Positions 583 through 6,759 of a stretch of 20,219 nucleotides of DNA are shown here, in pieces. Origin of the DNA: a virus; the IMG/VR virus record IMGVR_UViG_3300031800_000019, positions 1 to 20,219 of that record. The stretch is one strand, 5' to 3'. Positions within the stretch are counted from its first letter, which is position 1. Each line of letters starts with the position of its first letter. Position numbers and translations under genes: made by a program. The notes below the pieces were generated by a model. That model ran no database searches, was not told the DNA's origin, and was given only the letters and a program-made list of their open reading frames with translations.

Positions 583-786
583 CTAACGAGACAGCCACTC
601 ACGCCGACGAGGCGCTTCCCGCTCTCCTGACAGCGATGCCCTCCGCCCTGGTGGGTTGGCGCTCACGTTCCAGTCCCACGTCGGCCATGAGTCAATGATA
701 TCCCCTAGCATGGCGTGAAGGGCTTCCTCACTCAGTCTCCTCCCTAGCGTGTCGAACCTGAGTGGATCATCCAGTGGCAACCCCAT
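583..786 (-). CDS. Hypothetical protein, 67 aa
   Basis: A small unrecognised gene at the downstream end of the early operon. The ATG at 786 shares a base with the helicase TGA (TGATG junction), the same coupling style as its neighbours, and this is the main reason to believe it. The first 40 residues look like a folded acidic/hydrophobic helix pair ('SEEALHAMLGDIIDSWPTWDW'-like). The last 25 are basic and rich in Arg and Glu. It could be a helicase accessory protein by position, but nothing in the sequence shows function. It ends in TAG, whereas most operon neighbours end in TGA. Confidence 0.6.
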   Translation of the reverse strand: MGLPLDDPLRFDTLGRRLSEEALHAMLGDIIDSWPTWDWNVSANPPGRRASLSGEREAPRRREWLSR

Positions 787-1649
787 CACGGCTCTGGCCA
801 CTCGTCTAGCTCGTCGGGCAAGCCCTGTCTCTGGGAGAGGTCGCGGTACGAATTGAGGACTGGAATATCTCCCACCTTGCCGTGCCTGTTCTTCTCCACC
901 TGAATAAAAGTTCGAGCGCACTGGTTGGCATCGTCTCGTTCGTAGGCATGGTGCGAGAGCAAGAGGACAATATCTGAACACTGCTCGATTATGGCTCCGC
1001 CCCACAATCCAGTCATGCGAGGACGGGTGCGGAACTCGGATGACGTGGTGCGATTGAATTGAGAGAGCACCAGACAGACGATGCCATTGTTCGCCGCATA
1101 GGTTCGTAGATCGGTCGTGACCTCACTGATCGCTCGCATGATGTCCTGCTCCGAGCCTACGCTCGTAAGCTGGAGGTAGTCGAGGATCACATAGGTCGCG
1201 CCTTTTTCCTCCACTGCCTGACGGATGAAGGCGACCACATCCTCATAGCGCCCACTGATCTCGTCTGGGAAGTAGAGCCCCGGCAACTCCTCCGACGACC
1301 TCTGGGCTTCAGTCCAGATCCTGTCATCGAACGAGCCACGCTCCAAGCCGACCACTGGCATCTTGCTGACGATTGAGAAGTACCTAGCCGCGATAGCTTC
1401 AGCCGACATCTCGAGTGAGCAGTAGGCCACGCTCTCGCCTGCCCGCAGAGCCGCGCAACAGAAGTTCAAGGCCGTGATGGTCTTGCCGTGGCCTGTCAGG
1501 CCAGCCAGGGTGATGAAGAAGCCACGACCGAAGCCAGCAGGGTTGATGAGCGCGTCGAGGGCCGGGAGGTGAGACGGCACCGAGTCAGGCTCCCGGCGCT
1601 GAAGGAGCGCGAACTCCTCTTGAAAGGCGAGCGAGTTGACGTTGATCAT
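786..1649 (-). CDS. DnaB-type replicative helicase (RecA-fold ATPase domain), 287 aa
   Basis: A hexameric, DnaB/T7 gp4-type helicase core that would unwind DNA at the phage fork. Visible motifs are Walker A GLTGHGKT (50-57), the 'SLEMS' strand (78-82), Walker B VILDYLQL with D157, the SQFNR motif (196-200), 'IEQCSD' (221-226), and the EKNRHGK segment (252-258) that holds the arginine finger in DnaB proteins. At 287 residues it is the ATPase domain only; the N-terminal primase-binding domain of full DnaB (about 450-470 aa) is missing. The ATG at 1649 is chosen over an upstream ATG (1691) because GAGG precedes it and it overlaps the previous TGA as ATGA. It lies two genes after the putative initiator, as expected for a replication module. 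Confidence 0.92.
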   Translation of the reverse strand: MINVNSLAFQEEFALLQRREPDSVPSHLPALDALINPAGFGRGFFITLAGLTGHGKTITALNFCCAALRAGESVAYCSLEMSAEAIAARYFSIVSKMPVVGLERGSFDDRIWTEAQRSSEELPGLYFPDEISGRYEDVVAFIRQAVEEKGATYVILDYLQLTSVGSEQDIMRAISEVTTDLRTYAANNGIVCLVLSQFNRTTSSEFRTRPRMTGLWGGAIIEQCSDIVLLLSHHAYERDDANQCARTFIQVEKNRHGKVGDIPVLNSYRDLSQRQGLPDELDEWPEP

Positions 1650-1912
1650 GGTAGCCTCACGAGGAACCCCGGCGTCTTGGGGCCGTGCCAACCGCAGAGT
1701 CGGTTGAACTCAAGGTACTCAAGAGCCTCCTCGTAGCTGTCGCACCACTCGTCCATGAGTTGCCGAAGGACCTTCTCCTTGTCGTACAAGATGATCGGCT
1801 CCATGCCGCACCGCTCCAGAACCCCGATGACACAATCGTCGTAGCCTGTCACCATCAAGGCATCATCAGCGCCCATGTCCCGTAGCCGATCCGTTAGTGC
1901 GCAGCCTCTCAC
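1646..1912 (-). CDS. Conserved phage hypothetical protein, 88 aa
   Basis: A small acidic protein with a recognisable phage pattern: 'GYDDCVIGVLERCG', then 'ILYDKEKVL', then 'EEALEYLEFN', and a C-terminal 'TPGFL'. I recall this layout from many phage genomes, usually without a known function and often beside replication or nucleotide genes. The likely start is GTG at 1912. It overlaps the initiator TGA (GTGA), and AAGGTG lies 5 bases upstream. An ATG at 1876 would give a 76-aa product. Its stop overlaps the helicase ATG (ATGA). The longer reading frame upstream of 1912 is only a shadow of the initiator gene. Confidence 0.78.
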   Translation of the reverse strand: MRGCALTDRLRDMGADDALMVTGYDDCVIGVLERCGMEPIILYDKEKVLRQLMDEWCDSYEEALEYLEFNRLCGWHGPKTPGFLVRLP

Positions 1913-2571
1913 GACATCACCTTCATCAGTGCGCTGCCCGTGATGACGTTGCGCTTCAGCGCACCGGGAACCTCGTGGGCCTCCTCCCACCGCTGGTCCC
2001 TGATGTATCGGAACAGGTGGACGCCGTGGAAGTCTGGCGTGAGCGACGCCACGTAACCTCTGAGCGCCTTCACTAGCTCCTCCTGTGTGATGACCTCGGG
2101 CACCGCCGCCCGCCACTCCTCGAACGCTTTCGCCTTCGGCCCACGTCGGTGAGTTTTCCAAACAACCAAAAACTCAGACGGATACACCCGTCGCTTGCGA
2201 CGTGTTTGTTTTTTCTCTGTCTCTGTCTCTGTCTCTGGTGCATCATCTTGATATCGCGCTGATATCACGTTGATATCATCATCCGACGATATATCTATAA
2301 AACCCTGCACCGCTACCGCTTGGAGAAGCGGCCAAACTTCAGCAGCCGTCCGATGTAGCCGAAAGGCGATGTCTTCAATATCACCAGTGATGATGCCTTC
2401 GACGTGTTGCTCTGACGCGAGCAACCAACACTCCACCAATAGTTTTGCACACTCAGGTGGCAAGTCGTGCCATTGGCGGTCATCAAGTAATTCACGATAG
2501 AGCTTGATCCACGGAGGGCGGCGATCCTTGAAGTGCTGAAAGCGCGTGTAGTTCTTGATGGTGATCTTCAT
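1909..2571 (-). CDS. Replication initiator / replisome organiser-like protein, 220 aa
   Basis: This resembles phage replication proteins of the lambda O / DnaD-like type. It has a winged-helix-like N-terminus starting 'MKITIKNYTRFQHFKDRRPPWIKLYRELLDD' (about residues 1-95), a low-complexity linker (98-128; ETETETE then a Lys/Arg cluster), and a C-terminal domain (129-200) with the 'FLVVWKTH...AFEEWRAA...LFRYIRDQRWEE' pattern of helicase-loader or DnaD-like ends. The linker DNA carries iterons, hexanucleotide repeats and an AT-rich stretch, as expected if the origin lies in the initiator gene. The ATG at 2571 has AAGGAGAG upstream and overlaps the methyltransferase TGA (ATGA). Family naming is from pattern memory. 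The role as origin binder is inferred. Confidence 0.72.
   Translation of the reverse strand: MKITIKNYTRFQHFKDRRPPWIKLYRELLDDRQWHDLPPECAKLLVECWLLASEQHVEGIITGDIEDIAFRLHRTAAEVWPLLQAVAVQGFIDISSDDDINVISARYQDDAPETETETEKKQTRRKRRVYPSEFLVVWKTHRRGPKAKAFEEWRAAVPEVITQEELVKALRGYVASLTPDFHGVHLFRYIRDQRWEEAHEVPGALKRNVITGSALMKVMS
2214..2237. repeat. Four tandem TCTCTG hexanucleotides
   Basis: Four perfect TCTCTG copies, read as GAGACA-type codons on the minus strand, encode the Glu-Thr repeat (ETETETE) in the linker of the replication protein. Such a microsatellite can change copy number without shifting the frame. Confidence 0.85.
2249..2277. repeat. Three TGATATC iterons, 11-bp period
   Basis: TGATATC occurs at 2249-2255, 2260-2266 and 2271-2277. 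The starts are exactly 11 bases apart, about one helical turn, so a bound protein would face one side of DNA. The core GATATC is itself palindromic. The spacing is not a multiple of three, so the repeat is not a simple codon repeat; it encodes the differing residues Asp-Ile, Val-Ile-Ser and Arg-Tyr-Gln. Confidence 0.8.
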
Positions 2572-3710
2572 GGCGTCTCTCCTTCCGAAGGTATGAAACA
2601 CGTCTCCATCAGCCGCCGCCCGATCCACTCCGCTACGTTCACGGTCACCGCGTTGCCCATCATCCGGTAGCGCGGACCGTCAGCGAGTGCCTTATGGTTG
2701 TCCTCGTTCGTGATGCCCTTAGCTGTCCACCCATCGGGGAAGCCTTGTAGGCGCTCGCACTCGACGGGTGTTAGTCTGCGGGGTGTGGGGCCTGACACCC
2801 CGACATACGCCGTCCCATGCGTCCCCATCGTCGGTGTAAGCTCGAAACCTGTCTTGGTCGTGTTGTTGCCGTTGAACGCAATCGCGGCACGACCCTCCAC
2901 CCGCAGCGGGTGGTGTGTCCCGTCTTGGTGTGTCCCGTCTTGGTGTACGCTCTCTGATGTGAACGCTACGGGCTGGAGCGGAAACGCACCGGACGTGTCT
3001 AGGTCGTTTCTCCACCCGCGCTCGCCAGCAGCGCCACCGCCAAGGCTTCCGGCAACTTCTTCCCGCGCCTCTCTGCTCGGCGCAGGATGCCCGCGCAAGC
3101 CTTCGCCGAGAGCAAGTATTTCTGGTCTGGCGATTCCTCCAGAATGTCCGACAATGAACAGGCGTCTCCGTCGTTGCGCCACTCCGAAGTATTGAGAGTC
3201 AAGAGTAGCCCATGTGACGCCATACCCGAGTTCAACAAGGCTGGCAATGATGGTAAGGAAGTCACGGCCTCCGTTGCTGGACAGGAGCCCAGGTACATTC
3301 TCTCCGACAACCCACTCGGGGCGGCACTCAGCAATGATCCGGTGCATTTGCCACCAGAGTGCGCCACGGTCACCAGCCAAGCCGCCGCGCTTTCCTGCAA
3401 CGCTGTAATCTTGGCACGGGAATCCGCCGCAAATAAGGTCAACTGGTCTGTGGATTGTATCGGCTCCACTAGCGTGTACCGCTTTATTAGGTTCGCCGTG
3501 AACTGGTTTCCCCCGCCCTCGTCCGCCGACAGTGTTGCACTCACCTTTGACATCATGCACATCCTCGTAATGGGAAACCTCCGGCCAATGCTTCCGCAGC
3601 ACTGACCGCGCTTGCTTGTCGTACTCGACCGTCCAGGCGCACTTCATACCGGCACGCTCAAAGCCAAGATCAAAGCCGCCTACCCCGCTGAACAGGCTAC
3701 CGACTCTCAT
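2568..3710 (-). CDS. DNA (cytosine-5) methyltransferase, 380 aa
   Basis: A complete orphan C5 methyltransferase (Dcm/HhaI family), which transfers a methyl group from S-adenosylmethionine to cytosine in a specific site. Conserved motifs in order are I 'FSGVGGFDLGF' (7-17), IV with catalytic C99 in 'GGFPCQDYS', VI ENV (137-139), VIII QRRRR (179-183), and X with GNAV (352-355). The target-recognition region is roughly 190-310 and holds a tandem HQDGT repeat. There is no partner restriction enzyme nearby, so protection of phage DNA from host restriction is the likely use. The ATG at 3710 follows GGAAGAG and overlaps the RusA TGA (ATGA). Target site unknown. Confidence 0.93.
   Translation of the reverse strand: MRVGSLFSGVGGFDLGFERAGMKCAWTVEYDKQARSVLRKHWPEVSHYEDVHDVKGECNTVGGRGRGKPVHGEPNKAVHASGADTIHRPVDLICGGFPCQDYSVAGKRGGLAGDRGALWWQMHRIIAECRPEWVVGENVPGLLSSNGGRDFLTIIASLVELGYGVTWATLDSQYFGVAQRRRRLFIVGHSGGIARPEILALGEGLRGHPAPSREAREEVAGSLGGGAAGERGWRNDLDTSGAFPLQPVAFTSESVHQDGTHQDGTHHPLRVEGRAAIAFNGNNTTKTGFELTPTMGTHGTAYVGVSGPTPRRLTPVECERLQGFPDGWTAKGITNEDNHKALADGPRYRMMGNAVTVNVAEWIGRRLMETCFIPSEGETP
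2911..2940. repeat. Tandem 15-bp repeat in the methyltransferase target-recognition region
   Basis: TGGTGTGTCCCGTCT occurs twice head to tail (2911-2925, 2926-2940), with a partial third start at 2941. It duplicates five residues in frame (HQDGT-HQDGT, residues 256-265) inside the likely target-recognition domain. It looks like a recent slippage duplication. Confidence 0.8.
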
Positions 3711-4048
3711 ATCTCTTCCACCTCCAACTCCATCCGCTGATTCTTGCGGTCCACGTGTTGCCTGACCGTCAGCGTCCCGATGCACTTGGGGCTATCCGAG
3801 GCGATGTATCCGCGAGCTTGCAGCCAGTCGAGCACCCACTTGAGACGCCCATAGGCGTTGTCCTGATCCATCATGCTCCACACGTACAGGTCGCAAGTGA
3901 TGTCGCAACGCTCCAGCGTCTGGGCGGGCAGCTTGGGGTACAGCGCGGTGCTCGTCAGGTAGAACGTGTCCCTGTATCGCTTCTCCACGCGCCAGTGGCC
4001 CCAGCGTGCGTTGGCGCGGTTAGGCGGGAGGGGTAGGACCAGCCTCAT
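3707..4048 (-). CDS. rusA: RusA-like Holliday junction resolvase, 113 aa
   Basis: RusA enzymes cut four-way DNA junctions produced by recombination or replication. The family pattern is clear: N-terminal 'LPLPPNRANARWG' (5-17), the acidic pair D61-x-D63-N64 in 'MMDQDNAYGRLKWVLDWLQ', D74, and 'GYIASDSPK' with D85. The length (113 aa) is close to E. coli RusA at about 120 aa. The gene starts at ATG 4048, overlapping the preceding TGA (ATGA), and ends overlapping the C5 methyltransferase start. It probably resolves branched phage DNA before packaging. The symbol is given for family, not strict orthology. Confidence 0.87.
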   Translation of the reverse strand: MRLVLPLPPNRANARWGHWRVEKRYRDTFYLTSTALYPKLPAQTLERCDITCDLYVWSMMDQDNAYGRLKWVLDWLQARGYIASDSPKCIGTLTVRQHVDRKNQRMELEVEEI

Positions 4049-4123: not shown

Positions 4124-6442
4124 TCAAAATTGCCCCATCCCGACACGTTCCTCTCTGAGATATTCCGCGCCCTCATCCGCCTCGACAGAACCGACAGAAC
4201 TTGGTGGGTCGGAGGTTTTGTCGAGGTTGTCGGTACTCGCACCTGTGGCCGTGAATAAATCCACCCTGGACGACACAGCCGCTCCAAGGTTTATTACCGC
4301 CTGCCGATAATAGGATTGCTTTAGCTCGACACCCAAGAACCGTCGTCCTTCCTCTATCGCCACGTGGCCCTCTGATCCAATCCCAGCGAACGGAGACAGC
4401 ACTAGATCATTTTCGTTCGTCCATAACCTGATGGCCCTGCGGATTACTTGAAGTTGTAGGGGACAGATATGGCGTTCGTCTTCGTGTTCCCGCGCGCTGC
4501 GGTATTGGAGCGTGTCCGATGGGTTGATATCGCTCCATACGGGAGAGGCGTAGCGTTGCCACACCTTTACCGGGAAAGTTTCGTTCGTGTTCGTGACGGG
4601 GTCTGGGTTAACTCCGGGCTTCCTCATCGTCACCAAGTAGTCCGCGATGCCCTGGCGGCTCATGCATGCATCTTTCTTGAGCTGCTTGTGGAGGAGTCCC
4701 AAAGCCTTTGTGCGCTGCATCGCCGTCACGGGATCTTTCCAAATGCAGACCTCCGAATGGTAGATGAACCCGTGGTCCTGGAACAACCGGATCAATTCGC
4801 CGCGGAAATCGCGGATACCGATCACGCCATCGCGCACCTTTGATGTCGGCAGGTTCATGCAATGAAACGAGACCAGCCTGCCGTCCTTCGTCACCCGGAA
4901 TAGATCCCCGACCAGAAAGCCGAAATGTTCGCGGAACTCCTCAGACGAGCGACAGTTGCCCATGTCGCGGTCCGTCGCCGTGTATGTGTAGAGGCTCTCG
5001 AACGGCGGCGAGAAGATCGAATAATCCACTAATCCATCTGCCATGTCAGCGACAATTTCGCATGAATCTCCGAGGTGAAGCTTCCAACCATCGCCCTCTG
5101 ATGAGTCGGTTACATAAGGCTGTTGATCTCTAGTCATTCCACTCACATTCTCCCGGCTTAAGTCCCTCATATGGGCCGTCATTTCTTCCGTCATCTTTGT
5201 GGCGGAGGCTTCTTTGCGCTTGATGTTAGCCACGACCGCGCCCTCCACGTCGGCGGTATAGATATGCACCTGTACTTCACGTTCCTGGCCGAAGCGCCAG
5301 CACCTGCGAACGGCCTGATAATATTGCTCCCAAGAGTCCGACAACCCCACAAACGCGACGTTCCGGCAATGCTGCCAGTTCATGCCGTGACCAGCAATCG
5401 ACGGCTTGGTAACGAGCACCCGAAATGCGCCATCGGTAAAGCCCAAGAGCGTCGATTCTTTGTCCTCCGACGACATGGCACCACGCACCTCCACCGCGTC
5501 TGGGATCGCTTGCGTGAGCGCGTTGGATTCGTCATTGAGGTTGCACCATACGACCCACGGCTCTTCGGATGCGTTCACATCCAGGGCACACGCATCTACG
5601 CGGTCCCTTATCGTGGACCTACGAGCCCCTATGCGTTCCTGAAGGGTCTGAGCTTCCACCGGGAACAGAAAGCCGTCTTGGACTTGGCTGGCGCTGACGA
5701 CGTGATCGTGATAAACCACCGGGGGTAGCACGAACGCATCATCCTCGTAACCGAGATCAGAAGGGTTCCTGAGCATCACGGCCCAAGAACAAAGCCATCT
5801 CCAGAACTCGTCTTGAGCATGTCCCTTAAGCCTCCAGTTTTGAGTAGAGCCTCCGTCGTGAACAAAAAACGTGCTCAACATCTCACTCATCGTGAGTACG
5901 CCCATGAACTCGGAGTGGTTGCCTAATTCCGTGAAGTCATTAGGGGCGGGGGTCGCCGTGCAGGCGAGCCGGAACGGAGTATCCGAGAACGAGGAGATCA
6001 GATGATTGCGAAACGCGCCGTCCTTGTGTTTGATGATGCTAGATTCGTCGAGTACGATTCCAGACCAAGCGCCCGGATCGAAGCGATCAAGCATCTCGTA
6101 ATTCGTGATGTATGTTCGCTCGCCGGGGTCGCTTGGCTGCTCTCGGACATACTCAACGGGAACGTCAAACTTGGAACCCTCACGAACCGTTTGAGCGGCG
6201 ACCGCCAACGGCGCGAGGATCAATACCGATCCAGGCACGTGCTCTGCCCATACAAGTTGCATCGGAGTTTTGCCCAGCCCGCAATCAGCGAAGATGGCAG
6301 CGCGCCCACGTCGTAGTGCCCACCGTGTGAGGTCGCTTTGGAACGGGAAGAGCTTGGGGTTGAGCACTCCGGGAACTTCGATGCCCGTGTCCGGGTCCAC
6401 TGTGACCTTCCGCTTTAGGAAATCAGCGTAGTCCATCATCAT
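4124..6442 (-). CDS. SNF2-like helicase fused to a DNA methyltransferase, 772 aa
   Basis: Two enzymes on one chain. Residues about 25-430 are an SF2/SNF2-like ATPase: Walker A 'CGLGKT' (54-59), motif II LDESS (131-135) with DESS in place of DEAH, motif III 'CTATPAPNDF' (161-170), and motif VI 'QAVRRCWRFGQ' (376-386). Residues about 450-720 are an amino-methyltransferase (N6-adenine or N4-cytosine) in beta-class order: the catalytic SPPF (478-481) comes before the SAM-binding 'FAGIGSEG' (685-692) and 'GVELKQSYY'. The ATG at 6442 is preferred among three consecutive Met codons because GGAGG lies 7 bases upstream and it overlaps the previous TGA. Phage P1 DarB, also helicase plus methyltransferase, blocks type I restriction. 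A similar anti-restriction role is plausible but unproven. A DNA-translocating methylase is another reading. Confidence 0.87.
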   Translation of the reverse strand: MMMDYADFLKRKVTVDPDTGIEVPGVLNPKLFPFQSDLTRWALRRGRAAIFADCGLGKTPMQLVWAEHVPGSVLILAPLAVAAQTVREGSKFDVPVEYVREQPSDPGERTYITNYEMLDRFDPGAWSGIVLDESSIIKHKDGAFRNHLISSFSDTPFRLACTATPAPNDFTELGNHSEFMGVLTMSEMLSTFFVHDGGSTQNWRLKGHAQDEFWRWLCSWAVMLRNPSDLGYEDDAFVLPPVVYHDHVVSASQVQDGFLFPVEAQTLQERIGARRSTIRDRVDACALDVNASEEPWVVWCNLNDESNALTQAIPDAVEVRGAMSSEDKESTLLGFTDGAFRVLVTKPSIAGHGMNWQHCRNVAFVGLSDSWEQYYQAVRRCWRFGQEREVQVHIYTADVEGAVVANIKRKEASATKMTEEMTAHMRDLSRENVSGMTRDQQPYVTDSSEGDGWKLHLGDSCEIVADMADGLVDYSIFSPPFESLYTYTATDRDMGNCRSSEEFREHFGFLVGDLFRVTKDGRLVSFHCMNLPTSKVRDGVIGIRDFRGELIRLFQDHGFIYHSEVCIWKDPVTAMQRTKALGLLHKQLKKDACMSRQGIADYLVTMRKPGVNPDPVTNTNETFPVKVWQRYASPVWSDINPSDTLQYRSAREHEDERHICPLQLQVIRRAIRLWTNENDLVLSPFAGIGSEGHVAIEEGRRFLGVELKQSYYRQAVINLGAAVSSRVDLFTATGASTDNLDKTSDPPSSVGSVEADEGAEYLREERVGMGQF

Positions 6443-6759
6443 TTCTGACCCTCCCATAATTGCTGGTACCACGGCGCACGATCCCTGATGGATTGCTTGG
6501 TGCGCCCGTACCTCTCGCGGAACTTCGACTCCGGCATCTCGTCGAATCGCTGATGGACTTCCGACGACAGCGGCACGATGTCTTTGTACGTGCCACCCGC
6601 GCCCCTGCTCTTGGTATGAGCGTTGTGGGAGCCCTCAGAGCAGAGCCCCGTCACCTCGCACGGCAGGGAGCGGATGAACTTGACACGCTGCAACGACCCG
6701 AAATGCCTAGCGAAGCGGGCTTCCGTTCGGTCGAGCTTCCGCTGGGCAGTCGGCTTCAC
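6439..6759 (-). CDS. HNH-like nuclease, 106 aa
   Basis: A small basic protein with an HNH-like pattern: 'LPCEVTG' (C34), 'SHNAHTKSRGAGGTYKDIVPLSSEVHQRFDE' with H45, H48, D60 and H69. This resembles phage recombination-associated nucleases of the DUF968/Ref-like group, which have an H-x2-H and a later His in a beta-beta-alpha metal fold. The usual second Cys pair is not seen, so the zinc site may be reduced. Translation starts at GTG 6759, overlapping the upstream TGA as GTGA, with GAGG a few bases before. It lies beside RusA and the SSB-like gene, which fits recombination or DNA processing. Assignment to HNH is by motif only. Confidence 0.65.
   Translation of the reverse strand: MKPTAQRKLDRTEARFARHFGSLQRVKFIRSLPCEVTGLCSEGSHNAHTKSRGAGGTYKDIVPLSSEVHQRFDEMPESKFRERYGRTKQSIRDRAPWYQQLWEGQK

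Follow-up and report, generated by a model that had tools for sequence, protein, structure and literature searches.

Helically phased palindromes inside a viral initiator gene mark a probable replication origin

The window analysed here, a 20,219-bp stretch of viral DNA, carries on its minus strand a replication initiator gene, a gene for a small protein, and a gene for a phage DnaB-like replicative helicase that is the probable client of the initiator (Table 1). The initiator consists of an N-terminal domain (about residues 1-90), a linker (about 90-130), and a C-terminal module. The phrog_26426 profile matched the window protein with an E-value of 4.9e-11 and matched all 81 members of alignment A4, the window protein included; the name of that family, 'replication protein', carries no information on origin, iterons, or specificity. 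A profile of phrog_186, a DnaD-like helicase loader, gave a possible match to the DnaD-like region of the window protein at E 9e-5 and matched 40 of the 81 members, and the C-terminal modules vary among members, with O-like, primosomal, DnaT-like, and DnaD-like family matches. The initiator had no match in Pfam, NCBIfam, or PDB, and neither a search of solved structures with the family profile nor a search of Rfam returned one. A C5 cytosine methylase gene (2568-3785) adjoins the initiator, and at 4124-6472 helicase-type and N6/N4 DNA methyltransferase domains are joined in a single protein.

Table 1. Positions of the genes and sequence features in the window; motifs of stranded features are given on the coding (minus) strand.
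Feature	Position	Strand	Remark
Phage DnaB-like replicative helicase	786..1649	-	
79-aa protein of unknown function (phrog_13182), encoded between helicase and initiator	1646..1885	-	
Replication initiator gene, 220 aa	1909..2571	-	phrog_26426 'replication protein' match
14-bp dyad, CGTCGCTTGCGACG	2189..2202		just beyond purine tract
Purine-rich (AG/AC) tract, CAGAGACAGAGACAGAGACAGAGAAAAAACAAACA	2203..2237	-	
Degenerate iteron 4, TGATGCACCAG	2235..2245	-	register and form TGATNNNCYAG kept in most homologues
Iteron 3, CGATATCAAGA	2246..2256	-	
Iteron 2, TGATATCAGCG	2257..2267	-	
Iteron 1, TGATATCAACG	2268..2278	-	
AT-rich stretch	about 2286..2303		opposite side of iterons from tract
Codon of Phe14 (FQHF)	2530..2532	-	residue covarying with iteron type

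An earlier note on this DNA had described three TGATATC copies spaced 11 bases apart, and these were found on the plus strand at 2249, 2260, and 2271, in steps of exactly 11; a fourth, degenerate copy had been missed. The other elements that it listed, namely four TCTCTG hexamers (2214-2237, plus strand), a dyad, and an AT-rich stretch, are likewise present, and all of them lie with the iterons in the linker-coding region, which separates the parts of the gene for the two protein domains. Read on the coding strand, the hexamers belong to a purine-rich tract. The AT-rich stretch comes first on this strand, followed in order by TGATATCAACG, TGATATCAGCG, CGATATCAAGA, the degenerate TGATGCACCAG, the purine-rich tract, and the dyad, and the sites are best read there as TGATATCA palindromes. 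The three exact copies fall in three reading frames, encoding D-I-N, V-I-S, and R-Y-Q. The pattern GATATC-N5-GATATC-N5-GATATC occurs once in the window and in none of 100 dinucleotide shuffles, and the exact triple arose in 34 of 20,000 synonymous shuffles of the window gene alone. The argument against chance is therefore moderate from the window by itself, and the decisive evidence is comparative.

Homologues were collected by protein pattern, with no use made of the repeats. Conserved protein with scrambled iterons, the case that the earlier note had held to speak against an origin, was not the pattern found, since at least two phased sites were kept in 155 of 166 distinct homologous genes, as GATATC (75 genes), as GCTAGC (78 genes), or, in two genes, as hybrids only. 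Several of the 11 genes without two phased sites retained degenerate copies in register (e.g. L065 and L203). No clear array was seen in the divergent homologues L002, L104, and that of Methylophilales phage Venkman, with L104 and L002 also lacking in-register copies. Among 25 representatives of less than 60% identity, motif pairs peaked at separations of 11 bp (38 pairs), 22 bp (14), and 33 bp (9), the expectation at 11 bp under synonymous codon shuffling being 0.64; for the first 103 genes, there were 1.52 eleven-bp pairs per gene as against 0.036 under synonymous shuffling. The phased pair was confined to the initiator gene in four complete phage genomes of 39-47 kb, and a fifth, that of Vibrio phage phiV208, held no exact phased pair.

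When viral contigs were scanned for the GATATC triple at the DNA level only, with the protein ignored, at least 75 distinct matches were obtained, and about 67 of the 75 listed were in the initiator family. The corresponding strict scan for the GCTAGC triple, which gave 26 stretches with one distinct match in the family, is uninformative because this class uses more degenerate sites. A search of viral contigs with the phiPLPE protein, with confirmation by tblastn, yielded no match. Bacterial genomes rarely hold the family (two of 385 and five of 369 searched, two of the latter five matches being weak and C-terminal only).

Several contigs stood apart in their details. Two initiator-like proteins have no visible FQH domain (L339:967-1641 and L375:1-546, the latter with its start cut off), yet GATATC arrays in 11-bp steps are present in both, L339 having five copies, and a purine-rich tract comes after each array. 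Alternative explanations are convergence, transfer, and very distant kinship. Five genes (L007, L009, L102, L103, and L108) have extra GCTAGC-class sites in the conserved core at about gene nucleotides 117-150, within Leu-Ala-Ser codons and at a spacing of 11 and then 21, and these may be additional initiator sites. Limnohabitans phage DC33 (L270) is recorded as Inoviridae, yet its genome is 39 kb and its gene content is like that of a tailed phage, including for example a 9.4-kb ORF.

Codon usage at the sites was counted for Ile, Ser, and Arg in genes picked by protein pattern only. At site 1, Ile was encoded by ATC in 55 of 56 genes, while at site 2 it was ATA in 58 of 58 (17% elsewhere) and Ser was TCA in 58 of 58 (21% elsewhere); at site 3, Arg was CGA in 26 of 29 (13% elsewhere), and the residue alternates between Arg and Gly while GATATC stays. 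The FQHY genes, which belong to the GCTAGC class and encode a different peptide, used GCT for Ala, CTA for Leu, and AGC in 20 of 20 genes each. Synonymous codons are fixed site by site, Ile being ATC at the first and ATA at the second, which supports the proposal that selection acts on the DNA rather than on the protein.

The purine-rich tract has a codon bias of its own. Within it, Glu was GAG in 90% of cases (41% elsewhere), Thr was ACA in 99% (29% elsewhere), and Arg was AGA or AGG in 96% (32% elsewhere). The stretch counted had been selected by its purine content, so that the Arg value is biased, but the GAG/GAA and ACA/ACG comparisons are independent of that selection. Slippage in simple repeats could contribute to this bias. 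The tract is about 45% GC and not AT-rich; the AT-rich stretch stressed by the earlier note proved to be the least conserved part of the segment, and the tract is the likelier opening element. Perfect dyads of at least 7 bp were present just beyond the tract in 22 of 157 genes and in none of the 157 in a downstream control, and in 22 representatives there was an excess of hairpins relative to downstream sequence (P 0.009) and to synonymous shuffles (P 0.005). The dyad of the window itself, with a 5-bp stem, is unremarkable alone. The dyad sequences mostly differ from phage to phage; a common GTCCG...CGGAC stem was noted after the tract in L014, L017, L020, L036, and L243, which include both iteron classes.

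The type of site covaries with residue 14 of the initiator, the last position of an FQHF or FQHY motif, which was Phe in 75 of 75 GATATC genes and Tyr in 78 of 78 GCTAGC genes without exception; L262, an FQHY gene with GCTAGC, is concordant. Limnohabitans phage DC33 is among those with Phe14, and Iodobacter phage phiPLPE among those with Tyr14. Among the GATATC-triple matches listed, the residue was Phe in 64 of 64 where visible, and no FQHY was seen. Many other columns also separate the two clades, and the division between them is by itself little evidence. More informative are two genes (L011 and L014) that combine Tyr and GCTAGC with a domain that is otherwise Phe-type, and the closest relatives of the window (L420-L423) all have Tyr with GCTAGC, a second tree placing the window, with Phe and GATATC, among them. 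Together these indicate two to three independent switches between Phe and Tyr, all concordant and too few for significance in a sign test. The accompanying change in the iteron, from TGATATCA to TGCTAGCA, is symmetric in the palindrome, as would be expected if both half-sites were recognised by a protein dimer or by paired monomers.

Three other explanations for the conserved segment were considered. That the constraint lies only in the protein, the peptide DDI-x-x-IS-x-RYQ-DD...ETETE being needed and the DNA repeats following from it with help from codon bias or slippage, gains something from the fair conservation of this peptide within the GATATC clade and from the recurrence of the exact triple among synonymous shuffles of the window gene, but the codon data largely refute it: neighbouring sites fix synonymous codons differently, the site is kept while its residue changes between Arg and Gly, and the GCTAGC class has the same phase with another peptide. 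We give it almost no credence.

Better placed, although still improbable, is the possibility that the array is an operator, at which the initiator or a repressor binds within its own gene, blocks transcription, and so sets the level of expression rather than the start of replication. An operator of this kind would present the same picture of palindromes in helical phase that covary with a residue of the protein. However, the coding region begins about 290 bp before the array, no site resembling a promoter is close by, and it is not obvious what the purine tract and the hairpin after it would do in an operator. Somewhat less likely than an operator is a recombination joint, that is, a common linker that would let phages exchange N- and C-terminal initiator modules. 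The C-terminal modules do vary in the manner described above and GAGACA repeats could recombine, but a joint leaves unexplained the 11-bp phasing, the palindromes, and the covariation with a residue about 80 codons away. Such a joint may instead be a side effect of an origin placed between modules.

Based on these data, we consider that the segment is probably the replication origin of the phage, located inside its own initiator gene, and we assign this reading, made from sequence comparison, a probability of about 0.83. Points that count against it are the GC content of the tract, the divergent homologues in which no clear array was seen, the agreement of GC skew in two of four genomes only, the small number of Phe/Tyr switches, and the missing similarity to lambda O. 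In the scheme that we propose, the N-terminal domain of the initiator would bind the palindromic sites, which, being one helical turn apart, would allow the bound proteins to stack along a single face of the helix. This nucleoprotein would strain the adjacent DNA, the purine-rich tract would open or be held as a strand-specific single strand, the hairpin after the tract would form on one strand, and the C-terminal module would then recruit the DnaB-like helicase. Cumulative GC skew, suggested earlier as a check, reached its extremum close to the array in two of the four complete genomes and at a long distance from the array in the other two, and was uninformative; we rejected skew as an origin marker, since it was inconsistent across these genomes and tracks the direction of transcription. 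No description of the array or origin was found in the open-licence literature searched, and iterons go unmentioned in the publications on PBR31 and phiPLPE.

The likeness to lambda gene O that had been pointed out for this DNA holds for the plan, in which iterons inside the initiator gene (here those of a putative origin) are followed by a tract of purine asymmetry on the same strand, and fails for the sequence, the iteron length, and the AT content. In lambda, almost all of the purines of the A+T region are in one strand and the iterons bind O dimers (PMC5043065). Both systems have dyad-type iterons and a two-domain initiator with a modular C-terminus. In contrast, the lambda iterons are 18 bp long at a spacing of 20-24 bp, whereas those of the window are 8-bp palindromes at 11-bp steps; the lambda tract is 75% AT, whereas that of the window keeps the purine asymmetry at about 45% GC; and a DnaB-like helicase lies downstream in the window where lambda has a P-like loader. 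No similarity between the window initiator and lambda O was detectable (hhalign probability about 0.1%). With a shared plan and with differing step, tract composition, and proteins, the segment would work like ori-lambda and is not filed as a member of that group. Iteron plasmid origins of the P1, F, RK2, and R6K types likewise place initiator sites in helical phase next to a region that opens, but the array of the window is inside the initiator coding region and has no AT-rich 13-mers, and profile comparison of the initiator with the Rep_3 or RepA type gave no match.

A broader proposal, on which we are evenly balanced, is that these phages represent an undescribed and widespread replicator type of environmental phages. 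Its new DNA-binding domain would read 11-bp-phased TG[A/C]TA[T/G]CA palindromes by something near a one-residue code, in which Phe14 would specify A:T at positions 3 and 6 and Tyr14 would specify C:G there. It would open a purine tract that is not AT-rich, with a hairpin after it. We found here no characterised member of the initiator family, and the signature of 11-bp-phased sites, purine tract, and dyad marks a probable origin in a family of hundreds of viral contigs. The joint change in nature of one residue with two symmetric bases also makes it simple to test how the specificity of an initiator can shift. Finally, a candidate opening element that has strand asymmetry and is not AT-rich is relevant to the way in which origins open.
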